Below are positions 2,785-15,524 of a DNA stretch of 37,148 nucleotides, one piece after another (the first letter of the stretch is position 1; every line of letters starts with the position of its first letter). The position numbers were made by a program, and so were the translations under genes. Below the pieces are notes generated by a model. That model had not been told where the DNA came from and made no database searches. It was given only the letters and a program-made list of their open reading frames with translations. The DNA comes from a virus: IMG/VR virus record IMGVR_UViG_3300044998_000118, positions 1 through 37,148 of that record; one strand, given 5' to 3'.

Positions 2785-4725
2785 TTGTCTGAAGCCGTCA
2801 ACCCCCGCCTGAAAGCCGCCCTGGCCTACGCGCAACGGGGCTGGCACGTCTTCCCCTGCCTGGCCGGTCTCAAGGTGCCGGCGACCGAGAGCGGCCATCT
2901 GGACGCTACAACGGACGCGGCACGCATTGCGGCCTGGTGGGAGGAAAATCCCGCCTACAATGTCGCCATTGCGACCGGCCCAAGTGGGCTGTTAGTCGTG
3001 GACGTAGACCCGGCAGGGGTGCCGCACTGGGATGACCTCTTGGCGGCTTTCCCCGATCTGGCGCAAGCCGCCCTGGCCGCGCCAAGGGTCGCAACGCCCC
3101 GTCAGGGGTGGCATGTCTATTTTGAGGGAGAGGGCCCGTCCACGGTCCGAAAGCTGGCGCCTGGGATAGATACCCGCGGGGCGGGCGGTTATGTGGTAGC
3201 GCCCCCGTCTGTCATAGACGACGGCAAGAGCAAGGGCGAATACAGCGGCGATACCGAATGGGTGCCGCTTGTGCCTCTGCCCGAGGCTTTTGGCGCGCAT
3301 GTCGCCAGTCTTAAGCAGCCTGTCGATCGTGCGGCACCAGCTTTGCCAGCCGGTGAAATAGAATGGGACCGTCCAGAGACCGTCACCCGCGCCGGGAGAT
3401 GGTTGGACGGTCTGGTTGAAGCTGGCGATGTAGCGGTAGAGGGATGCGGTGGCGACCAAAGAACATATGAGGTCGCATGCCGTGTCCTGGAACTGGGGAT
3501 AACGCCCGAGCGGGCCGCCTCGCTTATCTCCGATCGCTGGAACCCGCATTGTCGGCCGCCATGGGACGAAGCCGAGTTGCGCGCCAAGGTTCGCAATGCA
3601 TGGACCTATGGCCAGGAGACACGGGGCGGCAAGGCCGAGAAGCCTCTGGAGCAGGAACACGCGCACTTGCTGGAAACTCCGGCCGAGGCGAAAACATACC
3701 GCTATGAGGTTCTGCACATATCGGAAGCGCGTCAAAAGTGGGCGCCGCCCGAATGGCTGATCGAGAATGTGATCCCGACCGAGGGAACGGGGGTCGTTTT
3801 TGGCCCGTCGGGAACATTCAAGAGTTTCGCGCTGTTGGACGTGGCGCTTTCGCTTTCCACCGGCCACGGCCCTAACTGGTGGCAGGGAGACGACAGGGAA
3901 CCGCGGTCGGTCCTGTATCTGGTGGGCGAAGGGCCGTCGGCTTTCGTTCGCCAGCGCACCGATGCCTGGTATGCCGCCCACGGGGTTCCTGGCCTCGACA
4001 GGCGATCGAGGCTCTACACCGTGAAAGGCGTTCCACCGTTCGAGATGCATGTTCATTGGCAGGAGATTATCGAGCAGATTGAGGCTCGTGATATTCGGCC
4101 CGCCTTTATCGTGATCGATACTCTCAGCCGTGCCATGGCTGGCCTGGATGAGAACAGCGCCAAGGACGTGATGACGGCGACACTGAAGATGGAAGCGATG
4201 TCGCGTCGGTTCGGATCTTTCGTGCTCGGGGTGCATCACACCGGCAAGTCGATCGAGCGGGGGATGCGCGGTTCCTACGCCTGGTTCGGCAATTCGGATG
4301 TTGTGCTTGAGACCGAACGCAAGTCGGAATCCCATGTCGAAATCGATATGCACGTTCGGAAGATGAAAGACGGCGACCGGATGGAGCACCCGATCCACCT
4401 GGAGGGTGAACTGTTCGGCTCGACCTTGGCCTTTCGTCGTGTGTGGGGCTATGAGCCCCCCGAAGTTACAGCGCCACCAAAGGCCCAATCCGGCGCAGGC
4501 ACCGAGGAATGGCTTCAGCCGGCCGCCCTTTATGTCGTCCTGTCCAAAGGCCCGCTGCATCTCGACCATCTGGCCGTCGCGCTGTCGCAAGCCTACCAGG
4601 TCAGCGAGCGCAAGGTGAGACGCGCTCTGCTCGATGCCAAAGACCGGCGTCTGCGCGCGTGGTGCCCCGATGGCCTGATCTGGCAAGTGCCAGCGGCTTC
4701 TACACCCGAAGGGACCGAGTTTTGA
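2785..4725 (+). CDS. Bifunctional primase-polymerase with RepA-type ATPase domain
   Basis: The 646-aa protein joins two domains. Residues about 5-190 are a primase-polymerase (Prim-Pol) domain, with LLVVDVDP supplying the metal-binding Asp73/Asp75, GWHVYFE supplying the conserved His110, and DTRGAGGYVVAPPS. After a helical linker comes a RecA/RepA-like ATPase: Walker A GPSGTFKS (340-347), LYLVGEGP, Walker B FIVIDTLSRA (Asp445) and the sensor stretch GVHHTGKS. A C-terminal winged-helix-like tail follows. The likely role is primer synthesis and origin or fork unwinding. I choose the TTG at 2785 because AAGGAACGG lies just upstream and the Prim-Pol homology begins there; the ATG at 2777 is out of frame. 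The stop overlaps the helicase TTG by 4 nt. Confidence 0.88.
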   Translation: MSEAVNPRLKAALAYAQRGWHVFPCLAGLKVPATESGHLDATTDAARIAAWWEENPAYNVAIATGPSGLLVVDVDPAGVPHWDDLLAAFPDLAQAALAAPRVATPRQGWHVYFEGEGPSTVRKLAPGIDTRGAGGYVVAPPSVIDDGKSKGEYSGDTEWVPLVPLPEAFGAHVASLKQPVDRAAPALPAGEIEWDRPETVTRAGRWLDGLVEAGDVAVEGCGGDQRTYEVACRVLELGITPERAASLISDRWNPHCRPPWDEAELRAKVRNAWTYGQETRGGKAEKPLEQEHAHLLETPAEAKTYRYEVLHISEARQKWAPPEWLIENVIPTEGTGVVFGPSGTFKSFALLDVALSLSTGHGPNWWQGDDREPRSVLYLVGEGPSAFVRQRTDAWYAAHGVPGLDRRSRLYTVKGVPPFEMHVHWQEIIEQIEARDIRPAFIVIDTLSRAMAGLDENSAKDVMTATLKMEAMSRRFGSFVLGVHHTGKSIERGMRGSYAWFGNSDVVLETERKSESHVEIDMHVRKMKDGDRMEHPIHLEGELFGSTLAFRRVWGYEPPEVTAPPKAQSGAGTEEWLQPAALYVVLSKGPLHLDHLAVALSQAYQVSERKVRRALLDAKDRRLRAWCPDGLIWQVPAASTPEGTEF

Positions 4726-7376
4726 GACTTGACTACACAGGGAAGGATTTTGTCCTGACGCTCGACCCTCGGGTTGACGGTCTGGCGCCCGCCGATCTGA
4801 TGTTGGAGCGCGGTTTGGACTATTCCCTGCCTGACAGCCGGCCGGGTCATTCCGTGCTCTACACCAGGGAGCCATGGGCCGTTGCCGATATGGTCGAGCA
4901 CGCTACGCCGCGCGCTGCGGCGGTTCTCAAGCCCATGGCCAGCCGCATCGCCGCCTCACGGGCCGAAACGTCTGATTCGCATTTCCGTATGCCGCCAGAC
5001 AAGGAACTGTGGCCTTTTCAGCGGGCCAGCCTGGACTATGTGCTCTCCCGGCAACAGTCGATTATCGCAGACGCACCGGGGCTCGGAAAAGAGCAACGGG
5101 TTGATGAGCCCGTTTTGACGCCTTCGGGTTGGCGACCGATTGGTGAATTAGAGGTCGGAGATAAAGTGTTCGCCGCAGACGGCACCGTGACCGAGGTTAT
5201 TGGGGTGTTTCCGCAGGGAATGAAGGCATCCTACCGAGTTACTTTTCGCGATGGCACGTCGGCTTGCTGCGGCGAGGAACATCTATGGAAGGTTTACAAT
5301 AAATCTTGGAAGGGTGAGAAGTGGCGGGTCATTTCGCTGCGGGCCATGTTGGATAACGGGTTTACGATGCCTAGAGGCAACCGTAAGAATCCTAGGTTCC
5401 GTATACCCCTATGCGCGCCGGTCCAGTTCCCGGAACGTGATCTGCCTGTGGACCCTTATGTGTTGGGTGTTCTTCTCGGCGACGGGTCATTGACAGGGCC
5501 AAGCGTTAACTTCTCTAACCCCGATTTTGACAGTGCAATTCGTGAGGAAATCCTGCGTCGGCTACCCGGAGAATACGCGCTCACAGCCAATAGACACGCA
5601 GCTTGCCCGTCTTATGAAATCGTGCGGCCCAACTCTCGCCAACCTAACCCGATCAAGGCGGCGTTGGAGGAACTCGGAGTCCGAGTGTTATCGGGCGACA
5701 AGTTCCTCCCCGACATATATTTTCAAGCCAGTGTGGCACAGCGTCTAGATTTGCTACGCGGGCTCATGGATACTGACGGGTCTTGCACAGCAAACCGAAC
5801 AACCTTCCACACGATCTCGCCTCTTTTGGCCAACGGCGTGGCTGACTTGGTGCGCTCTCTCGGGGGCCAGGCGGTAGTGCGTTTTTACGACCGCGCGCAC
5901 CATCAGAAACCGGGTGAGTTTCAGGTCAACGTCAAGATGGAAGTCTGCCCTTTCTTTCTGCCGAGGAAAGCCGCTGAGTGGGCGCCTCAGCGTGGGCTTA
6001 CAAAGGCGATATGGGGCGCGGAATATGAGGGGAGTTTTGAGTCCGTTTGCATTCGGATCGCGCACCCCGAACAGTTATATATCACGCGGGACTACACCGT
6101 AACCCATAATACGCCGCAGGCGATCGTCTATGCCAACGAAATTGGCGCGAAGCGGGTGCTGGTGATCTGTCCGGCGGCGATACGCCATCAGTGGGCTCGG
6201 CGGATCCGGGAATGGTCCACGATGCGCTGGCCCTTTGTTGTCTATACCGTCTCGAACAGCAAGAATGGTATCCACCCGACTGCCGAATGGACGGTGATCT
6301 CCTATGCACTGGCCCGGAACCCGGCTCTGGTGGCGGCCATTGCCGCGCAGCGGTTCGATCTGCTTATCGTCGACGAAAGCCATTATCTCAAAGACCCCAA
6401 CGCTGGACAGACAAAGGCGATCTACGGCGGTGCCGATGGCCTGTATCATTTCCGAAGCGGTGCCGATGCCCTGCCGTCAATCATATCCCGCTGCGCGCAT
6501 GTTCTATGCCTGTCGGGAACCCCGATCGTGAACCGGCCTCTTGAAGCCTACACCACGTCCAGGAACCTGTGTTGGGACTCCATCGACTATATGAGCCTGG
6601 AAAAGTTCCGGATGCGCTACAATCCACAGAAAACGAAGTTCGTGGGGGACGGCAAGCGCGTCAACGATGAACGGATTGGCCGAGTGCGGGAATTGGGCAA
6701 CCGGATGCGGGGCACATTCATGGCTCGCCATGCCAAGCGAGACGTGATGAAGCAACTGCACATGCCTGAATATGAAATTGTGCAGGTCGAGGAAACCGGC
6801 GAGGTTCGCGCGGCTCTCCGGGCCGAGAGCCTTCTCGGGCTCGACATCGAGACGCTTCAAACCACGAGGGATTACACGATCCTCGGGCATATCGCGCAGG
6901 TCCGGCGTGAGATGGGCATAGCCGTAGCGCCACAGGCAGCGGATTATGTCCGCGTTATCCTTGAAGGCGGCGAGGACAAGGTCGTCGTCTTCGGCTGGCA
7001 TATCGAGGTGCTCGACATTCTGCAACAGTCTCTCGCCCGCTTTGGCGTCCTGCGGATTGACGGGTCAACGACTGCGAAAAAGCGCCAGCACTATGTCGAT
7101 CTGTTTCGTTCCGATCCGGCAATGCGGGTCATGCTTGGGAATATCCAGAGCATGGGGACAGGGGTGGACGGGTTGCAGGAGGTGGCCACGCACTGTGTTC
7201 TGGTTGAACCGTCATGGACACCCGGCGAGAATCAGCAAGCCGTGGACCGGCTGGACCGTGGCGGCCAGAAAGGGCAGGTGCAGGCCGATTTTCTGGTTGC
7301 ACCCGGATCGGTCGCTGAAAAAATCCTGGTGGCGGCGTTACGGAAGGCTGACACCATCCACAGGACCATAGGTTGA
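4722..7376 (+). CDS. SNF2/DEAD-type helicase interrupted by an intein
   Basis: The precursor is 884 aa and the predicted spliced protein 544 aa. Extein motifs are LWPFQRASLDYVL before motif I, motif I APGLGK/T (interrupted between Lys123 and Thr464), VLVICPAAIRHQW (Ia), LLIVDESHYLKD (motif II, DESH), LCLSGTPIVNRP (III), a C-terminal RecA lobe with VVVFGWHIEVLD, and motif VI QAVDRLDRGGQKGQ. This is the SF2/SNF2-like fold common in phage replication modules. The TTG start at 4722 overlaps the primase stop and is preceded by GAAGGGA at 8 nt; an upstream start would extend far into the primase gene. Loss of intein splicing would leave the ATPase P-loop broken. Confidence 0.9.
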   Translation: MRLDYTGKDFVLTLDPRVDGLAPADLMLERGLDYSLPDSRPGHSVLYTREPWAVADMVEHATPRAAAVLKPMASRIAASRAETSDSHFRMPPDKELWPFQRASLDYVLSRQQSIIADAPGLGKEQRVDEPVLTPSGWRPIGELEVGDKVFAADGTVTEVIGVFPQGMKASYRVTFRDGTSACCGEEHLWKVYNKSWKGEKWRVISLRAMLDNGFTMPRGNRKNPRFRIPLCAPVQFPERDLPVDPYVLGVLLGDGSLTGPSVNFSNPDFDSAIREEILRRLPGEYALTANRHAACPSYEIVRPNSRQPNPIKAALEELGVRVLSGDKFLPDIYFQASVAQRLDLLRGLMDTDGSCTANRTTFHTISPLLANGVADLVRSLGGQAVVRFYDRAHHQKPGEFQVNVKMEVCPFFLPRKAAEWAPQRGLTKAIWGAEYEGSFESVCIRIAHPEQLYITRDYTVTHNTPQAIVYANEIGAKRVLVICPAAIRHQWARRIREWSTMRWPFVVYTVSNSKNGIHPTAEWTVISYALARNPALVAAIAAQRFDLLIVDESHYLKDPNAGQTKAIYGGADGLYHFRSGADALPSIISRCAHVLCLSGTPIVNRPLEAYTTSRNLCWDSIDYMSLEKFRMRYNPQKTKFVGDGKRVNDERIGRVRELGNRMRGTFMARHAKRDVMKQLHMPEYEIVQVEETGEVRAALRAESLLGLDIETLQTTRDYTILGHIAQVRREMGIAVAPQAADYVRVILEGGEDKVVVFGWHIEVLDILQQSLARFGVLRIDGSTTAKKRQHYVDLFRSDPAMRVMLGNIQSMGTGVDGLQEVATHCVLVEPSWTPGENQQAVDRLDRGGQKGQVQADFLVAPGSVAEKILVAALRKADTIHRTIG
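5091..6110 (+). mobile_element. Class 3 intein with LAGLIDADG endonuclease (340 aa)
   Basis: The insert lies inside the Walker A motif, between GLGK and T. It starts with Glu, not Cys/Ser, and ends VTHN before Thr. It has the class 3 signature: Trp two residues after the block B His (EEHLWKVY), Cys in block F (ESVCIRIAHPEQLYIT) and Thr at the +1 position (the WCT triad). Two LAGLIDADG motifs, VLGVLLGDGSL (block C) and LLRGLMDTDGSC (block E), flank a complete homing endonuclease domain. Codon use and base composition are visibly less GC-rich than the extein, consistent with recent arrival. Class 3 inteins are known from phage DnaB and SNF2 helicases; the class assignment rests on these residues. 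Confidence 0.9.
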
Positions 7377-7736: not shown

Positions 7737-8163
7737 TGGTGCGACCGGTGCGTCAGCCAGTTCAACGCAAAACACGGAGAAGCGCGGACGCGGGCGCCCG
7801 AGGAAGAATACCGTTTCTGGCTCGGAGCCGGCGACGACGACGACAAAGGAAGATGACGAGGGAAACTCGCCGTCTGGCGAAACCTCTGCGACGGTCGAGG
7901 TCGAACAGCCTTCGGTCGATGCATCCTCGACTTCTTCGGAGACTGCGACTGCTGCCGATGACCCGATCTCGGATCAGGATTTGCAGCGGTTCTGCGCTCG
8001 TGTGGCACAGCATTTCGGCGGGCCGGCCAGGCTTTTCGATATGTGCCAGCCCTATGTTCCCGAGGGTGGAGTGCTGCGTCCCACGAATATCGCCGACCAG
8101 GCCAAGCGCCGTGCGTTCGTGGCCGATCTCGAAGCCGCCAGCGGGCTGAAGTTCCATGGCTAA
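7555..8163 (+). CDS. AT-hook protein of replication module (202 aa)
   Basis: Starts with ATG after GGAAAGAAGG. The N-terminal 30 residues (MIEIKLTCETVAEAQAEMKA) form a small helical domain. They are followed by a long Ser/Thr/Ala-rich linker containing an AT-hook-like basic patch KRGRGRPRK. A C-terminal domain (SDQDLQRFCARVAQHFG...DQAKRRAFVADLEAASGLKFHG) follows. The layout suggests a DNA-binding accessory protein of replication, with the AT-hook contacting the minor groove. The stop overlaps the start of the nuclease gene by 8 nt. Confidence 0.8.
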   Translation: MIEIKLTCETVAEAQAEMKALLNGSPTSLATTAPAPVITTNSTSLAVVAPAKVLATTTASDGATGASASSTQNTEKRGRGRPRKNTVSGSEPATTTTKEDDEGNSPSGETSATVEVEQPSVDASSTSSETATAADDPISDQDLQRFCARVAQHFGGPARLFDMCQPYVPEGGVLRPTNIADQAKRRAFVADLEAASGLKFHG

Positions 8164-9286
8164 GGGCCACAGTCTGTTGGGGGCTTCCAGCGCCGCGCGC
8201 TGGTTGGCCTGTCCCGGCTCGTTCGATCTGGTGCAGCTTGTGGGAGAGGAGCCCGAGAGCGAACATGCCGCGCTCGGGACAGCCGCCCACAAGGTTGTCG
8301 AGATGGCGCTGAATGAGGGGAAGGATGCCTGGGAGTTCGTTGGCCAGAAGATTGACGGCTTCGACGTGGCACCCGACCGGGACGACGCTATCGACCCAAT
8401 CGCGCTTCAGGTCTACCTGGACTACATCTCGGCTATTACCGATGAGGCGGATTATGTAGAGGTCGAGCACACCTTCGGCAAGAAATACAGGCCGAACCCC
8501 TATTTTTGGGGGACGGCGGATTTCGTGGCTGTGTCTGACCATCTGCATGTCGTGGACTACAAGAACGGCGCCGGGATCGAGGTTGATGCCGTTGGCTCGC
8601 CCCAACTTCAGTATTATGCTTGGGGGGCTATCAACGAACTCGACTTCGATTTCCCGGACGATATGCCGGCCAGGCTGGCGATCGTGCAGCCGCGATCCTC
8701 GCATGGCTCGGAGCCGAAGGAGTGGGTTACGACGGTCGGCGCTATCCGCAAGTGGGCCACCGAAGTTCTGCTTCCGGGTATGGACCGGGCCATATCGGGC
8801 GCTGGCGATCTTCAGACGGGCGAGCACTGCCGTTTCTGCCCGGCGAGACTGGCCTGTCCTGCTGCCCGTGCCGACTTCGAGGCCGTAGCGACCGCCACGG
8901 CTGATGTCAGCGACGAGGCCCTGGACAGGCTCTATCTTCAGATGCAGACGGCCAAGATCGTCATGAAGGCTATCGAGGCCCGTATTTTGGCCCGCTGCAT
9001 GGAGGGGGCGAATTTCCAGCACGTCAAGCTGGTCAGGAAACGGACGACCCGCACATGGAAGGAAGGGGTCGAACCGAAGATCGTCGAAGCCCTCGGCGAT
9101 GACGCCTACGTCAGATCGTTGATCTCCCCGGCTCAGGCCGAGAAGATTTCGAGCAAGATGAAGGCGTTTGTGGCGGAAAACGCGTTTTTACCGGAGAGTG
9201 ACGGCTACACGATCGCCTTGGCAACCAGCCCGACTCCGGAGGCCACTCCGTCCAGCGACTTGGCCCGTCAATTCGCTCATTACTAG
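8156..9286 (+). CDS. DUF2800 PD-(D/E)XK nuclease, Cas4/RecB-like (376 aa)
   Basis: The protein has the RecB/Cas4-type nuclease pattern: GTAAH (His45), WGTADFV (Asp122), VVDYKNG (Asp134, Lys136) and QLQYYAW as the Q-x-x-x-Y motif. Cys19 (ACPGS) together with Cys225, Cys228 and Cys234 (HCRFCPARLACPA) could bind a 4Fe-4S cluster, as in Cas4/AddB. In phages the DUF2800-DUF2815-PolA gene string is a recurring replication/recombination unit, and it is intact here apart from an inserted endonuclease gene. The last 28 codons before the TAG are duplicated downstream, fused to that endonuclease. Confidence 0.9.
   Translation: MAKGHSLLGASSAARWLACPGSFDLVQLVGEEPESEHAALGTAAHKVVEMALNEGKDAWEFVGQKIDGFDVAPDRDDAIDPIALQVYLDYISAITDEADYVEVEHTFGKKYRPNPYFWGTADFVAVSDHLHVVDYKNGAGIEVDAVGSPQLQYYAWGAINELDFDFPDDMPARLAIVQPRSSHGSEPKEWVTTVGAIRKWATEVLLPGMDRAISGAGDLQTGEHCRFCPARLACPAARADFEAVATATADVSDEALDRLYLQMQTAKIVMKAIEARILARCMEGANFQHVKLVRKRTTRTWKEGVEPKIVEALGDDAYVRSLISPAQAEKISSKMKAFVAENAFLPESDGYTIALATSPTPEATPSSDLARQFAHY
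9200..9283 (+). repeat. Duplicated gene 3' end, upstream copy
   Basis: Codons for 28 residues (DGYTIALATS through RQFAHY) that end the DUF2800 gene are repeated at 9822-9905. The two copies encode identical peptides. Thirteen codons differ, all synonymously, and a central 35-nt core (9224-9258 and 9846-9880) is identical. Confidence 0.97.
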
Positions 9287-9293
9287 GTGCTTT

Positions 9294-9917
9294 ATGCCAA
9301 ATCCGAAAAACGATCGGTTGTCGGTAGAAGATTTGAGGGAGCGTGTTGAATACGATCCCGTCTCCGGGCGTTTTACGCACGCCTTATCTAGGGGTCCGGC
9401 GGTCAAAGGTAATCCGACAGGCACACGAAAGGCGAACGGCTATACGTCACTTACAGTAAAGGGGGTCGAAGTTCTGGCTCATAGAGCGGCATGGGCTTTG
9501 ACCTATGGAGATTGGCCGGATGGGTGTCTTGATCATATATCCCTAGATAAGAACGACAACCGAATTGCTAATCTCCGACTAGCCTCCGCCACTCAAAACC
9601 GCGCAAATACGCCGGTCCACAAGAACAATCTTTTGGGGGTGAAGGGGGTCCACCGCACGAAGCAAGGGCGGTTTCGGGCAGCCATCAAGGTAGCAGGAAA
9701 AACGAAAGCCCTTGGGGTAGTGGATTCCGTAGAGGAAGCGGCAGACCTATACGACGGCGCGGCGAAACGGTATTTTGGAGATTACGGCCGTGGCGACAAA
9801 AGGGGTTGTAACGCGCCGGCAGACGGGTATACTATCGCTCTGGCGACCAGCCCGACTCCGGAGGCCACTCCGTCCAGCGATCTGGCCCGCCAGTTTGCCC
9901 ATTATGATGTCAATTAG
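9294..9917 (+). CDS. HNH-AP2 homing endonuclease fused to duplicated host-gene tail (207 aa)
   Basis: The ATG at 9294 lies 7 nt after the DUF2800 stop. Residues 60-105 are an HNH nuclease (LAHRAAWALTYGDWP, LDHI with His81, KNDNRIANLR with Asn89). Residues 113-165 are an AP2-type DNA-binding domain (GVKGVHRTKQGRFRAAI, AADLYDGAAKRYFGDYG). This pairing is typical of free-standing phage homing endonucleases. Residues 177-204 are a second copy of the C-terminal tail of the upstream nuclease, followed by DVN and a stop. The element therefore appears to have inserted into the 3' end of the DUF2800 gene, restoring that end upstream and keeping the displaced end in frame downstream. Confidence 0.9.
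   Translation: MPNPKNDRLSVEDLRERVEYDPVSGRFTHALSRGPAVKGNPTGTRKANGYTSLTVKGVEVLAHRAAWALTYGDWPDGCLDHISLDKNDNRIANLRLASATQNRANTPVHKNNLLGVKGVHRTKQGRFRAAIKVAGKTKALGVVDSVEEAADLYDGAAKRYFGDYGRGDKRGCNAPADGYTIALATSPTPEATPSSDLARQFAHYDVN
9822..9905 (+). repeat. Duplicated gene 3' end, downstream copy
   Basis: Second copy of the 28-codon tail, in frame with the HNH-AP2 endonuclease. It is probably the original end of the DUF2800 gene: its codon choices (CTG, GCG, CGC, CAG) are the more GC-typical ones, and it continues three residues further than the upstream copy. That assignment is inference. Confidence 0.9.
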
Positions 9918-9929
9918 AAAGGTAAGATC

Positions 9930-10706
9930 ATGTCCAAGAAGTATTATCCCTATGTCCTCTCTCAACCCGGTCGGGCGCTCTACATCAACGCTGTCGAGGC
10001 TTCCAAGCCGCGCACCGTTGCTGAGGCCAAGACCAAGTATTCGGTGACACTCGGTATCGAGGAATCGGACGCTCAGGCGCTGTTCCAGCTTCAGGCAGAT
10101 GCGATCAAGGAAGCGTTCGGGACTTTTACGGCTCCCGACGACTACATGCTCGCTTGTGTCTCCGGTGCCAAGGCTGCGGCCAAGGTGCTGGCAAGCGCGG
10201 AGATCAACGCCCGCGGCAAGCCCGAGGACGAGCGGTTCAAGATCATGTCGGCTGCGGAAGCCCGCGCCGATCTGTTCAAGCCCTATGCTGGCGTCCTGAA
10301 CGCATCGAGTCGTGTTGCGTTCCATGACAGGTTTCTGGATCGGTATCAGACTGATCTCGACCCGAAGGAGCGTGAGAACGCCGACCGGATGGGTTTCCGC
10401 CTTTCTGTGATGGCGAGGCCCAAGTTCATCGTTCTTGATACACCGCTCCTGTTCCAGGAATACAAGGATCGGTTCTACCGTGGATCCTACATCGGCGGGT
10501 CGTTCAACCTGAACGCCTGGCCGCGCAAGACGGCTGACAACAAGGATGGCGTCACCGCCTATCTGAAGTCTCTTGTGTTCGTGAAGGACGGCGATCGTCT
10601 GTCGGCTGAGCGTCCGCTGGAAGACGAGTTCAGCCACTATCAGGGCCTGGCGACCGACTACAGCCCGGCGGCGGAAGCGGCCAAGGTGGACGCCTACCAG
10701 TTCTGA
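9930..10706 (+). CDS. DUF2815 protein, putative ssDNA-binding (258 aa)
   Basis: Starts MSKKYYPYVLSQPGRALYIN after AAAGGTAAG. The protein matches the DUF2815 family by its overall pattern: LFKPYAGVLNASSR-type central region, FRLSVMARPKFIV, a GSYIGGSFNLNAW strand pair, VTAYLKSLVFVKDGDRL, and an acidic/aromatic tail ending VDAYQF. Members are encoded beside DUF2800 nucleases and PolA in many phages and are thought to be single-strand DNA-binding proteins. The acidic C-terminus fits a partner-binding tail. It is separated from the polymerase gene by a terminator-like hairpin. Confidence 0.85.
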   Translation: MSKKYYPYVLSQPGRALYINAVEASKPRTVAEAKTKYSVTLGIEESDAQALFQLQADAIKEAFGTFTAPDDYMLACVSGAKAAAKVLASAEINARGKPEDERFKIMSAAEARADLFKPYAGVLNASSRVAFHDRFLDRYQTDLDPKERENADRMGFRLSVMARPKFIVLDTPLLFQEYKDRFYRGSYIGGSFNLNAWPRKTADNKDGVTAYLKSLVFVKDGDRLSAERPLEDEFSHYQGLATDYSPAAEAAKVDAYQF

Positions 10707-10711
10707 ACTTT

Positions 10712-10740
10712 GGGAGGGGGTTTTGCAGCCCCCTCCCTTT
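10712..10740 (+). terminator. Terminator-like hairpin upstream of polymerase gene
   Basis: GGGAGGGGG (10712-10720) pairs with CCCCCTCCC (10729-10737) around TTTTGCAG, followed by only three T. The stem is strong but the U-run is weak, so it may act as an attenuator lowering polymerase expression relative to the abundant DUF2815 protein. Confidence 0.55.
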
Positions 10741-10755
10741 CCCGAGGAACGGTTG

Positions 10756-13617
10756 ATGCCCACTTACGTTGTCTTGGACTTCGAGACTGCCTCCTGCGCC
10801 GATCTGCGTAAGGTCGGAGCCTGGCGTTACGCCGAAGACCCCTCCACGTTCATTCTATGCCTTGGCTACAAGGTCGTCACGGATGGGAAGGCCGACCCAA
10901 CCGAAGTTCTGACCGAAAAGGATATTGCGTGGCGGAGCGAGCCACTATTCTCCCTGGTCGGAAACCCGGATGTGATCTTCGTGGCGCACAACGCCAATTT
11001 CGAGCAGGCGATCTGGCGCCACATCATGGTCGGGGTCCACGGATGGCCCCCATTGCCCCCGGACCGCTGGCACGACACGATGGCGGTTGCTTGCCGCAAG
11101 ACGCTGCCTCCGGCTCTCGATAACGTTGGCGCTCTCCTGCGTCTCCCGGTCCAGAAGGACAAGGAAGGCCATCGGCTGATGATGCAGATGTGCAAGCCCG
11201 GCCGGAACGGTTTTTTCGACCATGATCCAGTCAAGATGGACCGCCTGGTTCAGTATAATGTCGGGGACGTGGACACTCAGTATGAACTTCACCGGGCTCT
11301 TGGTGGCCTCGGGCCGGAAGAACGTCGGGTCTGGATACTCGACCAAAAAGTGAACCAGCGCGGTATCCGTGTTGACGTGGCCTATGTCCGCCAGTGCATG
11401 GGTCTGTTGGAGGCCGCCCGCGCACCGATGGAGCGTTCCTTTTGTGCTTTGACCGGCGGCATAAGCCCGACACAGCGGGCCAAGACGTTGGAGTGGATAC
11501 AGAAGCAGGGGGTCAGGATGTTCGATCTCCGCAAGGCCACCCTGGACGCTTTCCTCGACCCTGAGAACGAACTGGATGACTTCGACGATCTTCCGGCCAA
11601 TGTGCTGGAAGTCATCAAGATCCGGCGCGTGCTGGCTTCGTCATCGGTGGCCAAACTTGGGCGCATGATCGAGACGATGAACTTCGACGGTCGTATCCGC
11701 GGCACGATGCAGTATCACGGCGCCAGAACCGGCAGGACAGCCGGCAGACTGGTGCAGCCCCTCAACATGCCCCGACCGACCATCCTTAGCGATACCCTCA
11801 CTCAAGGCGCTGTGATGGACATGATCCGCCGTGGCGCGGTTGGCGAAATCAATGAAGCCTGCGGGAACGTCTACGAGGCAGTGATCTCGACGCTGAGAGG
11901 CTGCTTCGCGCCAGCCAAAGGGCACATCTTCGCTGTCGGAGACTTCAACGCCATCGAGGCGCGGATCGTGCTGGCTCTGGCTGGTGAGTATGACCGCGCC
12001 AATAGCTTCGACAAGGGCGACCCTTACAGCGACATGGCTGCCAGCATCTACGGCCGCCCAGTAAACAAGCGAGACCACCCGAAGCTGCGTCATGACGGAA
12101 AGACGGTCGTGCTCGGGTGTCTTGCTGAAGGCACGAAAGTTTTGACCCATTCCGGTTGGCGGGCTATTGAAACCATCACGACAGAACACCGGCTTTGGGA
12201 TGGGGAACAGTGGGTAGAGCATCAGGGACTGCTAAAGAAAGGTTTGAAGCCAACGCTCTCGCTTTGCGGACTTTGGTTGACGCCGGATCACCTAGTGTGG
12301 TGCGGCGGGCAGACTTGGTTCCCCGCCGAGCAACTAGCGGCTCCCGGAAACGGCATGATCCGCCGGGCATTGGCGATCGCTTCGGCAAACTGGAAATCAC
12401 CGGCTATGTGGTCGGGCCTCGGGGCGGCCTACAGACTCTTATTGTCCGCTGTTCCTGTGGCCAACCGGAGTATACCGTGGCTCTTAACAGTTTCCGGGGC
12501 GGCCGCTCAAGTCGGTGCAACCTGTGCGCGCTCAAGGCAGCACAGGCGACTTATCGCAGGAAATACTATTGGGCTTACGCCGATGCTTGCCCGGATGATG
12601 AGCACCGTCAGCGGTTACTTAACCGGCTTTCAGCGGCGATCACTCGTTGCCACAGACCTGTTCGGAGCACCGAACGCGGCCGCTCTGTCGCCGCCGCATA
12701 TACGGACCGGGGAATCAGGGTGTGCGACGAGTGGCGGGCCGATCGTGCGGCTTTTCTCCGGCACGTTCTTACGCTTCCTGGTTGGGACAATCCCGCGCTG
12801 GAAATGGACCGGGTGGACAACTCGAAGGGATACGAGCCGGGTAATATCCGCTTCGTTGACCGGCGAACCAACAACAGCAACCGGAGGACCGTGGCAAAGC
12901 TTCAGGCGGAAGTTGATGACTTACGACATCGCCTTCGCCGGGCCGAACAACAGATTCACGGTTGCGACCGATGCCGGGCCGCTGGTGGTCCATAATTGCG
13001 GCTTTCAAATGTCTGCCGCGAAGTTCGCGTTGGTGACAGGAAAGACGCCTGAGTTTAGTGAGCGCGCTGTTGGGGTATACCGCAAGGAGTGGGCCCCGCT
13101 GGTGCCGAAGCTGTGGTATGGCCTCGACGATGCCAGCACGAAGGCGGTATGGTGTAACGCCAGGCGCGCCTATGAGTATCGGGGTATCTCCTACCAGATG
13201 CGCGGCCAGTATCTCGTCTGTAGGCTCCCGAGCGGACGGGAAATCTACTACTTTGAGCCCAAGCGGGAGCAGAAACAGGCACCGTGGGACCGTTCTCAGA
13301 TTCTTCCGGCTTGGTCATTCTTGTCCTTTCAGGGCAAGCGCATCCAGCGCAAGTTCATGTTTGGCGGCCTGGCCACTGAGAATGTGGTGCAGGCCACGGC
13401 CAGGGATATCATGGTCGAAGCCATGTTCCGCTGCGAGGGCAACGGTCTGCCAATCGTGTTCACTGTCTACGATGAACTGATCGCGGAGCCGCTGCTGAGT
13501 TTGCCGGATCCCGATAAGCTGCTGAAGCAATGCATGGAGGAGCGCAGCGACTGGGTAAAGGAATACCGGATCCCTATCATGGCTGAGTGCGAGACCATGC
13601 ACGAGTATGCGAAATGA
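10756..13617 (+). CDS. Family A DNA polymerase with 3'-5' exonuclease, interrupted by an intein
   Basis: The precursor is 953 aa and the spliced form about 660 aa. The N-terminal DEDDy exonuclease shows YVVLDFETAS (ExoI), FVAHNANFEQAIW (ExoII) and YNVGDVDTQYEL (ExoIII). The polymerase part shows TMQYHGARTGRTAGRLVQPLNMPR, motif A VGDFNAIEARIVLALAG, motif B (O helix) RHDGKTVVLG/CGFQMSAAKF, split by the intein, and motif C VFTVYDELIAE. No 5'-3' exonuclease domain is present, as in other phage polymerases. The ATG at 10756 is preceded by GAGGAACGG. The stop overlaps the methyltransferase ATG (ATGA). Confidence 0.93.
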   Translation: MPTYVVLDFETASCADLRKVGAWRYAEDPSTFILCLGYKVVTDGKADPTEVLTEKDIAWRSEPLFSLVGNPDVIFVAHNANFEQAIWRHIMVGVHGWPPLPPDRWHDTMAVACRKTLPPALDNVGALLRLPVQKDKEGHRLMMQMCKPGRNGFFDHDPVKMDRLVQYNVGDVDTQYELHRALGGLGPEERRVWILDQKVNQRGIRVDVAYVRQCMGLLEAARAPMERSFCALTGGISPTQRAKTLEWIQKQGVRMFDLRKATLDAFLDPENELDDFDDLPANVLEVIKIRRVLASSSVAKLGRMIETMNFDGRIRGTMQYHGARTGRTAGRLVQPLNMPRPTILSDTLTQGAVMDMIRRGAVGEINEACGNVYEAVISTLRGCFAPAKGHIFAVGDFNAIEARIVLALAGEYDRANSFDKGDPYSDMAASIYGRPVNKRDHPKLRHDGKTVVLGCLAEGTKVLTHSGWRAIETITTEHRLWDGEQWVEHQGLLKKGLKPTLSLCGLWLTPDHLVWCGGQTWFPAEQLAAPGNGMIRRALAIASANWKSPAMWSGLGAAYRLLLSAVPVANRSIPWLLTVSGAAAQVGATCARSRQHRRLIAGNTIGLTPMLARMMSTVSGYLTGFQRRSLVATDLFGAPNAAALSPPHIRTGESGCATSGGPIVRLFSGTFLRFLVGTIPRWKWTGWTTRRDTSRVISASLTGEPTTATGGPWQSFRRKLMTYDIAFAGPNNRFTVATDAGPLVVHNCGFQMSAAKFALVTGKTPEFSERAVGVYRKEWAPLVPKLWYGLDDASTKAVWCNARRAYEYRGISYQMRGQYLVCRLPSGREIYYFEPKREQKQAPWDRSQILPAWSFLSFQGKRIQRKFMFGGLATENVVQATARDIMVEAMFRCEGNGLPIVFTVYDELIAEPLLSLPDPDKLLKQCMEERSDWVKEYRIPIMAECETMHEYAK
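12118..12996 (+). mobile_element. PolA intein with no endonuclease in its own frame (293 aa)
   Basis: The insert begins Cys (CLAEGTKVLTHSGWRAIE, block A) and ends LVVHN before Cys, interrupting the O-helix motif of the polymerase at residues 455-747. Block B is GLWLTPDHLVW and block F is YDIAFAGPNNRFTVATD. Between blocks B and F the polymerase frame is open but encodes about 160 residues of low-information Ser/Ala/Arg-rich sequence with no LAGLIDADG or HNH motif. The endonuclease is instead in a different reading frame of the same DNA. Splicing residues (Cys1, His-Asn, +1 Cys) are all intact, so splicing should work. Confidence 0.92.
12195..12995 (+). CDS. HNH endonuclease overprinted out of frame within the PolA intein
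   Basis: In the -1 frame relative to the polymerase, this reading frame encodes a complete HNH endonuclease. It has an N-terminal GDRFGKLEITG strand (nt about 12369 on), paired cysteines RCSC and RCNLC (86, 88, 108, 111) for a zinc site, then DRGIRVCDEWR and MDRVDNSKGYEPGNIRFVD followed by NNSNRR. A coiled-coil tail VAKLQAEVDDLRHRLRRAEQQ ends it. This is the homing-type HNH pattern. The TAA stop (12993-12995) lies inside the CAT AAT codons for the intein's terminal His-Asn. The true start is uncertain: the first possible start is TTG at 12195, without a clear RBS, and a -1 ribosomal shift from the polymerase frame is an alternative. Confidence 0.85.
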   Translation: MGWGTVGRASGTAKERFEANALALRTLVDAGSPSVVRRADLVPRRATSGSRKRHDPPGIGDRFGKLEITGYVVGPRGGLQTLIVRCSCGQPEYTVALNSFRGGRSSRCNLCALKAAQATYRRKYYWAYADACPDDEHRQRLLNRLSAAITRCHRPVRSTERGRSVAAAYTDRGIRVCDEWRADRAAFLRHVLTLPGWDNPALEMDRVDNSKGYEPGNIRFVDRRTNNSNRRTVAKLQAEVDDLRHRLRRAEQQIHGCDRCRAAGGP

Positions 13618-15524
13618 CCGTGCAAATCCTTAATGGCGATTGCCGCGTCGTGCTGCCGACCCTGCCCGCGCAATCCGTGCACTGCATCGTGACCAGCCCG
13701 CCCTATTTTGGCCTGCGCGATTATGGCGTCGATGGGCAGATTGGGCTTGAGCAGACGCCGGATGCCTTCGTTGCCGAACTGGTAGCGGTGTTTCGGGAGG
13801 CGCGGCGCGTGTTGCGGGATGACGGGACGCTGTGGCTTAATCTGGGGGATAGCTACGCGAGCAAGTTTGCCGGTGAGCGACGGAACGCCATGGGCGCTGG
13901 ATCGCCGGACCCCAGCGTGCGCCGCGCCAATCGTCTATTTGGCCTGAAAGAGAAAGACCTTATCGGCATCCCTTGGCGCGTTGCATTTGCGCTGCAAGCA
14001 GATGGCTGGTATCTCCGGCAGGATATTATCTGGTGCCTATCCGGTGGCGCTTCCGTCTACGCCCGCACGCAGAAGGGCGACATGCCGATGATGGTCAAGG
14101 ATCTGGTTCGGCTACGGCCCGAGACCGTGAAGCTGTGGAACGGCGAGAAGTGGACGCAAGTTCTCGGCTGGTCGAGGTCGAAACGCCCACGCGACGGCGC
14201 GCTAGAGATCGAACTGCGCAGCGGCGAGCGCATTGGTTGCACACCGGGGCATCAATGGCCGACCGAGCGCGGCGTGGTGCGTGCTGACGATCTGCGCATC
14301 GGAGACGTGATTGCTACAACGCGCCTGCCGCAGCCCGACGCTCCGAGAGACCCCGCCGCGCTTGGCAATGACGTGGCGTGGTTGTGCGGCCTCTACCTCG
14401 CTGAAGGTTCGATCAATGGCAACACAATACAGCTCGCCGGCCATGCTGACGAGACGGCCAATCGCCTTTCTCGGATTGAGGGCGTGGCGGCATCGTTTGA
14501 CGCTCCAGTAGGCGTCCACACCGATGGCAACAACGCGACGATTCGGATTGAAGGCGCGCTGATCGCTTCCGTCATCCGGGCCTACATCCACGGCGTCAGC
14601 GCCCACGACAAGGGCATCAAGGTTCGCGCATGGAATCGTGGGGATGATTGGTTGCGCAGCCTGTTCGAGGGCTACCTTGCGGGCGACGGCCACCATGACG
14701 CGAAGAACGACCGCTGGCGCTTGGGCTTCTGCCGCAATGATCGCCTTGCGCGTGACTTCCGAACCCTGGCGGCTAGGCTTGGCCTGTCGCTCCGACTCGC
14801 AGCTATGACCGCGACCGGCTTCGGCAAGGAATGGCCAGCCTATCGTGGCGACGTGCGCCTCACGCCAACGGAGCACCATAACGCGCGCCGCGACGGCGAG
14901 ATTGTCGCCATCCGGGCAAGCCGAGCGCGAGAGTTTTGGGACATCGGCGTCGAGGATGAGCCGCACCTGTTCGCGCTCGCGTCGGGCGTGCTCACGCACA
15001 ACTCCAAGCCGAATCCGATGCCGGAAAGCGTGCGCGACCGCTGCACCAAGGCGCATGAGTATCTGTTCCTGCTGTCGAAGCGGCCTCGATACTATTATGA
15101 CGCAGACGCGATTGCGGAGCCGGCAATCCACGCTGGACGAGTTGTGCTCGCCTCTGGCGATAAGGCAAAAAACGCCAATGCTGGATTTGGCAGCGACACA
15201 AAGGCGGGATTTACGAAGCACGACACTATTGTTGCCGAAACCCGCAACAAGCGCAGCGTCTGGACGGTCACAGCGAAGCCATTCAGCGGCGCGCATTTCG
15301 CCACCTTCCCGCCAGACCTGATCGAACCATGCATCAAGGCAGGATGTCCCATTGGCGGCACAGTCCTCGACCCCTTCGGCGGCGCTGGCACCACCGGGCT
15401 TGTCGCCGACCGGCTGCAACGGAACGCAGTCTTGATCGAACTGAACTCAGCCTATGCGGCTATGGCGGCAGAGAGACTTGGGCCAACAGAAAACAAGATG
15501 GAAATCCGAGAGGATATGTTCTGA
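13614..15524 (+). CDS. Beta-class DNA methyltransferase interrupted by an intein
   Basis: The precursor is 636 aa and the spliced form about 313 aa. Catalytic motif IV is SPPYFGLRDY, near the N-terminus. The AdoMet-binding motif I is near the C-terminus (LDPFGGAGTTGLVADRL), so the order is that of beta-class N4-cytosine/N6-adenine enzymes. The phrase KPNPMPESVRDRCTKAHEYLFLLSK is typical of the family. The ATG at 13614 overlaps the polymerase stop. The likely role is protecting phage DNA against host restriction. The C-terminal EIREDMF and the stop are part of a 50-nt sequence repeated after the Dam-type gene. Confidence 0.92.
   Translation: MTVQILNGDCRVVLPTLPAQSVHCIVTSPPYFGLRDYGVDGQIGLEQTPDAFVAELVAVFREARRVLRDDGTLWLNLGDSYASKFAGERRNAMGAGSPDPSVRRANRLFGLKEKDLIGIPWRVAFALQADGWYLRQDIIWCLSGGASVYARTQKGDMPMMVKDLVRLRPETVKLWNGEKWTQVLGWSRSKRPRDGALEIELRSGERIGCTPGHQWPTERGVVRADDLRIGDVIATTRLPQPDAPRDPAALGNDVAWLCGLYLAEGSINGNTIQLAGHADETANRLSRIEGVAASFDAPVGVHTDGNNATIRIEGALIASVIRAYIHGVSAHDKGIKVRAWNRGDDWLRSLFEGYLAGDGHHDAKNDRWRLGFCRNDRLARDFRTLAARLGLSLRLAAMTATGFGKEWPAYRGDVRLTPTEHHNARRDGEIVAIRASRAREFWDIGVEDEPHLFALASGVLTHNSKPNPMPESVRDRCTKAHEYLFLLSKRPRYYYDADAIAEPAIHAGRVVLASGDKAKNANAGFGSDTKAGFTKHDTIVAETRNKRSVWTVTAKPFSGAHFATFPPDLIEPCIKAGCPIGGTVLDPFGGAGTTGLVADRLQRNAVLIELNSAYAAMAAERLGPTENKMEIREDMF
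14034..15002 (+). mobile_element. Methyltransferase intein with LAGLIDADG endonuclease (323 aa)
   Basis: Inserted between IIW and SKPNPMPES at residues 141-463. It starts with Cys (CLSGGASVYAR) and ends VLTHN before Ser. Block B is the GCTPGHQW stretch, LAGLIDADG motifs are WLCGLYLAEGSI (block C) and LFEGYLAGDGHH (block E), and block F is REFWDIGVEDEPHLFAL. All splice residues are present, so it is a standard class 1 intein. Its GC content matches its surroundings, unlike the helicase intein, suggesting longer residence or a donor of similar composition. Confidence 0.92.

Follow-up and report, generated by a model that had tools for sequence, protein, structure and literature searches.

A gene end that is found twice, on either side of an endonuclease gene, raises the question of which copy is native and how the other came to be there. 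In the 37,148-nucleotide viral DNA analysed here (the window), comparison of the sequence with itself places 28 codons both at the terminus of a DUF2800 gene (copy A, 9200-9283) and, in frame, at the C-terminus of the HNH-AP2 endonuclease gene that follows it (copy B, 9822-9905), these and the other features of the locus described below lying on the + strand. The host gene (8156-9286) encodes a DUF2800/PD-(D/E)XK exonuclease of PHROG 69 (PF10926, E 1.3e-56; PF12705, E 3.1e-13). The endonuclease gene (9294-9917) starts 8 nt past the host stop, and its product carries an HNH_3 motif above the Pfam cut-off (PF13392, E 4.8e-13) and matches PHROG 99, the homing endonucleases (E 2.3e-53). The AP2 domain of the window protein alone scores below the Pfam cut-off (17.1 against 33.3 bits); a profile of four family members matches AP2/ERF structures from plants (E 1.3e-8), so that a C-terminal AP2 DNA-binding domain is recognised at the family level, and the same profile matches the structure of an HNH homing endonuclease, 1u3e. 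As a single-protein query against viral contigs, the endonuclease retrieved no relative.

Native and imported copies of the gene end

The two copies encode the same peptide (28 of 28 residues), and the codons that are unlike, 13 of the 28, all differ silently. Codon comparison and a repeat search delimit a 35-nt core without mismatch (9224-9258 in copy A, 9846-9880 in copy B), which gives a run of 11 identical codons that is not expected by chance amid such diverged flanks (permutation P about 0.001). The two copies, their silent differences and the core had been described in an earlier note made from the sequence alone, and were confirmed.

The direction of the event is given by L001, an IMG/VR contig whose host protein is 98% identical to that of the window and which is devoid of the endonuclease. 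Its DUF2800 gene is uninterrupted and has a single end, AFLPESDGYTIALATSPTPEATPSSDLARQFAHYDVN and a stop, directly followed by the gene of the ssDNA-binding protein, which in the window is the native flank (9930-10706; Gp2.5-like, PF10991, E 5.4e-12; PHROG 112). The L001 terminus, DGYTIALATSPTPEATPSSDLARQFAHYDVN and a stop, is identical with copy B in its final codons, in the stop and in the ribosome site of the following gene, and from position 9906 the first 300 nt after copy B, including the DVN-stop with which the endonuclease frame closes at 9917, are identical to L001. Since the native end and flank of L001 match what follows copy B, copy B is, on this comparison, the displaced native 3' end (9822-9917 with its DVN-stop), and copy A is the one imported with the endonuclease insert. 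The proposal that an endonuclease gene had been inserted together with a replacement gene end that restores the host gene, leaving the displaced end fused to the endonuclease, is thus supported by the uninterrupted allele, and the imported end keeps the exonuclease gene intact.

L001 is the only close uninterrupted relative of the locus; a DNA search with the locus among named phages gave no match, and in genome contigs the DUF2800 relatives were all distant. The window and L001 are nearly identical through the end of the ssDNA-binding protein gene (about 10706), beyond which they are not alignable. Apparent inteins are present in three neighbouring genes of the window, those of an SNF2-like helicase (4509-7376), DNA polymerase A (10723-13617) and an N6/N4 methyltransferase (13587-15524), as judged from Pfam LAGLIDADG_3 or Intein_splicing matches in the helicase and the methyltransferase and by eye in the polymerase. 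The helicase intein region (5070-6670) shows 0-1 differences per 100 nt from L001 and the adjoining extein 3-5 per 100 nt, as would be expected after a recent intein sweep.

The imported tract is longer than the duplication. The AFLPES codons that precede copy A, and that are missing from copy B, are likewise recoded with respect to L001, which indicates that the tract begins earlier than copy A, at about 9182; codon tables against L001 and against L002, a relative with 71% identity to the window protein, thus place the silently recoded 3' end (the AFLPES codons, copy A and a new stop) at 9182-9286. Compared with L001, the native 18 nt for AFLPES are gone and 9182-9821 (recoded end, stop and endonuclease) stand in their place, a swap of about 18 for about 640 nt that break repair near the AFLPES segment could leave. 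Copy A is itself a mosaic: recoding affects 12 of the 13 codons at 9182-9220 and 5 of the 6 at 9266-9283, and the stretch between them (9221-9265) is L001-like with a single change, while copy B has six silent differences from L001, close to the junction. The core matches L001 nearly as well as it matches copy B, and we tentatively read it as a patch of past recombination with native-type sequence, the earlier note having taken it for a possible recombination tract. The L001-like middle of copy A and the differences in copy B suggest a history more complex than a single clean insertion.

The same layout at other genes

The earlier note suggested looking for other HNH-AP2 genes that carry the ends of their neighbours. 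Loci with HNH-AP2 genes were drawn from viral contigs and phage records, giving 195 distinct usable ones, and the translated sequence upstream of each endonuclease was compared with that downstream in all same-strand frames. In a null set of 3000 mismatched pairs of HNH loci the top scores were about 50, save for one pair at 337 that probably consists of homologous loci. Among the 195 loci the clear cases were the window (score 147), L016 (156) and L209 (62), to which bacterial genomes contributed L267 (144); extra samples of bacterial genomes mostly yielded the same loci again. In all four, two copies of a host-gene terminus flank the endonuclease, at the 3' end in L016 and L267 and at the 5' end in L209, and the return of the layout in further genes speaks for a general mechanism. 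Leaving aside the window, which was given beforehand, the survey gave about 3 such cases among some 200-240 loci; most HNH-AP2 genes surveyed show no visible gene-end duplication, so that this appears to be a minority mode of the family. The endonucleases of the other three loci are 31-43% identical to that of the window, for which reason the four layouts are probably of independent origin.

In L016 the duplicated 3' end is that of a terminase gene, ending SSHPADSFRYLAVGYRER and so on. The order is the terminase with its end SSHPADSFRYLAVGYRERGSWKSGAIKRGLKGIA, the HNH gene, and then SSHPADSFRYLAVGYRERNSWKGGAIKRNIQGIA outside the HNH frame; over 34 codons the copies differ by 17 silent and 5 amino-acid changes. 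When this neighbourhood was scanned for uninterrupted relatives, L016 alone came back and no close relative. Its 14-kb phage contig (G005) carries three HNH_3 genes, and the gene-end duplication is confined to the one at the terminase end. In the window and in L267 the displaced end shares the reading frame of the endonuclease, in L016 it does not, which shows that the fusion is not required; the idea that the endonuclease tags itself with the displaced end therefore holds as a description of the window, where the fusion is real, the tag itself being incidental.

In L267 a tape-measure gene ends in ENSAALGRMMDAAVLQVIEREKRPGGTLY(S), and the HNH protein closes with the same 29 residues plus Q. 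The 29 residues are identical with 22 codons recoded, no amino-acid change and no 11-mer in common. The GC3 of the upstream copy, which completes the gene, is 0.38, that of the HNH gene 0.42, that of the gene body 0.64 and that of the displaced copy 0.79. As the completing copy resembles its HNH gene and not the body, it seems to have travelled with the endonuclease. The displaced copy has the base composition of a GC-richer genome, and it is this composition that supports its being native; the genome family that holds L267 yielded nothing but L267 when searched for an uninterrupted relative.

L209 is the mirror case: here the gene affected codes for a tail fibre, and the duplicated terminus is its 5' end. 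At its N-terminus the HNH protein carries the start of the fibre gene, MPKNKVSEYSATAA, and after it the fibre gene restarts (MAKNKVSEYSSTAA / MAKNKVSEYSSTAANN); uninterrupted homologues are present in public phage genomes.

Three further candidates (L029, L110 and L273) were rejected as tandem or remnant HNH genes, L080 was not counted since it looks like a tandem or remnant HNH gene or a chance match, and no duplication was seen in two whole genomes of named phages that hold several HNH genes. L011, L087 and L009 are possible cases only, their end duplications being short or weak. In L011 (2903-3534; Pantoea phage PdC23, also L079 and L082) the HNH C-terminus, RDIIAYRVIENDGREG, resembles DIVAYRVVKSGG and TYRQIENDGG near the end of the upstream gene, and this may be a weaker gene-end case in a cultured phage. 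In L087 (2993-3509) the HNH gene, at the terminus of an apparent DNA polymerase gene, is flanked by a 17-nt repeat, GGAGAGGTCGAATGACA, possibly a minimal gene-end duplication.

Insertion and origin of the recoded end

We consider it likely that the window contains a free-standing, intron-less HNH-AP2 homing element that enters a phage gene at its terminus and brings along a substitute for the end it displaces. Cleavage and homing by the endonuclease are deduced here from the arrangement of the sequence. The nuclease would cleave uninterrupted alleles within or close to the 18-nt AFLPES segment, the cut site being predicted at the insertion point, and repair of the break from an element-bearing genome would copy in the recoded end and the endonuclease jointly. 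The recoded end would rescue the function of the host gene and at the same time abolish the cut site, making the new allele resistant, and its identity to the displaced native end would be too low for easy recombinational excision, even if the 35-nt identity between the copies still leaves a route for it. The displaced end would stay as passenger sequence, sometimes read as a tail of the endonuclease. As to the source of the recoded end, it could be either a diverged donor or the native copy, silently changed under selection.

The earlier note took the replacement end to come from a diverged relative, by which reading ordinary recombination with a related phage brought in the upstream end and the silent differences are old divergence. 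This departs from the best explanation solely in the source of the recoded end, and we regard it as possible, if somewhat doubtful. It would account for the amino-acid differences that accompany the silent ones in L016 and L209, for the deviating base composition of the imported end in L267, as if it came from another genome, and it has a parallel in the foreign ends of mitochondrial mobile ORFs (PMC3630166). The pattern of codon changes, however, weakens it. Between the window and L001, the last 34 codons differ by 18 silent and no amino-acid changes (codons 1-342, by 6 and 7), while between L001 and L002 the silent and amino-acid counts are 5 and 12 for the same tail and 109 and 95 for the body. 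Taking codons as independent and with this one reference pair, the window tail departs from natural divergence at Fisher P 3e-5 against the body and 7e-6 against the tail, and the 22 silent changes of L267 depart from that of the window gene body at P 4e-6. The imported end thus looks re-encoded and not merely diverged, and that not one amino acid has changed speaks against the view that it was simply captured from such a relative. A search with a degenerate ARQFAHYD pattern, moreover, matched L001 and L002 only, so that no donor of the copy A codons was found.

It can also be the case that the insertion duplicated its target and that the upstream copy then changed silently in place, under selection against excision or re-cutting. 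Identity of the peptide follows directly from such a process, the silent changes go both from T to C and from C to T, as if difference per se were favoured, and within the recoded blocks, whose limits were set post hoc, 17 of 19 codons differ, more than random re-encoding would give (P 0.005). We nevertheless find it unlikely, since the flanks are mostly 0-4% different from L001 and copy A about 21%, with an abrupt onset at 9182, since recoding extends to the AFLPES codons, which do not belong to the duplication, and since the completing copy of L267 has the composition of its endonuclease.

HNH endonucleases are frequent residents of group I introns, and the same peptide is encoded before and after the insert, as if copy B were a true second exon and copy A merely the unspliced ending; but a self-splicing intron is very improbable here and was rejected, given that Rfam detects no group I intron RNA, nor any other match up to E 1, around the endonuclease gene (8900-10200), nor, in L016, L267 and L297, any match that passes the gathering score, that copy B continues the reading frame of the endonuclease, as does its counterpart in L267, and that the duplication of L209 is at a 5' end.

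Going beyond the insertion itself, we tentatively suggest, with rather less than even confidence, that phage HNH-AP2 elements of this kind are home-and-rescue drives of natural origin, whose rescue terminus would have been selected for the same peptide together with silent divergence, escaping self-cleavage and excision, and which would have arisen repeatedly, in different genes and at both ends.

Comparison with known systems

In the engineered home-and-rescue drive HomeR the rescue is reportedly recoded. Like the phage element, HomeR combines a nuclease in an essential gene with rescue of its target, but it is synthetic, CRISPR-based and made for a diploid insect, whereas the phage element is natural (PMC7968924). 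Among natural systems, phage HNH and AP2-associated homing endonucleases, for example those in ICP1, and PHROG 99 share the domain architecture and likewise stand close to important phage genes; the excerpts of that work considered here describe no gene-end duplication or recoded terminus (PMC10448857). The Seg and Mob endonucleases of T4-like phages, which perform intronless homing, are also free-standing, their described cut sites being hundreds or thousands of bp away from the genes that encode them, and break repair that co-converts adjoining sequence would operate in the same manner in the present case; a displaced, duplicated gene end does not figure in the portions of the account drawn on here (PMC2988022). 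The open-access literature searched contained no phage report of this architecture, which is weak evidence of its absence.

The closest parallel is that of the mobile ORFs of fungal mitochondria, found in atp6 of Allomyces macrogynus and in atp6, atp9, cox2 and nad3 of Glomus sp., in which the gene is expressed with the inserted C-terminus, its native one having been displaced (PMC3630166). There, as here, an endonuclease ORF stands at the 3' end of a gene with a replacement C-terminus, and the native C-terminus, pushed downstream, is nearer to relatives than the inserted one (PMC3630166). The mitochondrial enzymes are, however, of the LAGLIDADG or GIY-YIG type and those of the phages HNH-AP2; the mitochondrial inserted ends are said to be foreign (PMC3630166), whereas in the window and L267 the two ends are identical in amino acids; and the phage set includes a 5' version, L209.

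A free-standing endonuclease could accordingly enter the coding part of a phage gene with neither intron nor intein, bringing its own working gene end. Overwriting of gene ends in terminases, tail proteins and recombination nucleases bears on phage phylogenies and annotation, and the elements offer a natural test of whether selection can silently recode a short peptide. The architecture as such is already known from fungal mitochondria; the phage loci are its counterpart, widened to 5' ends.
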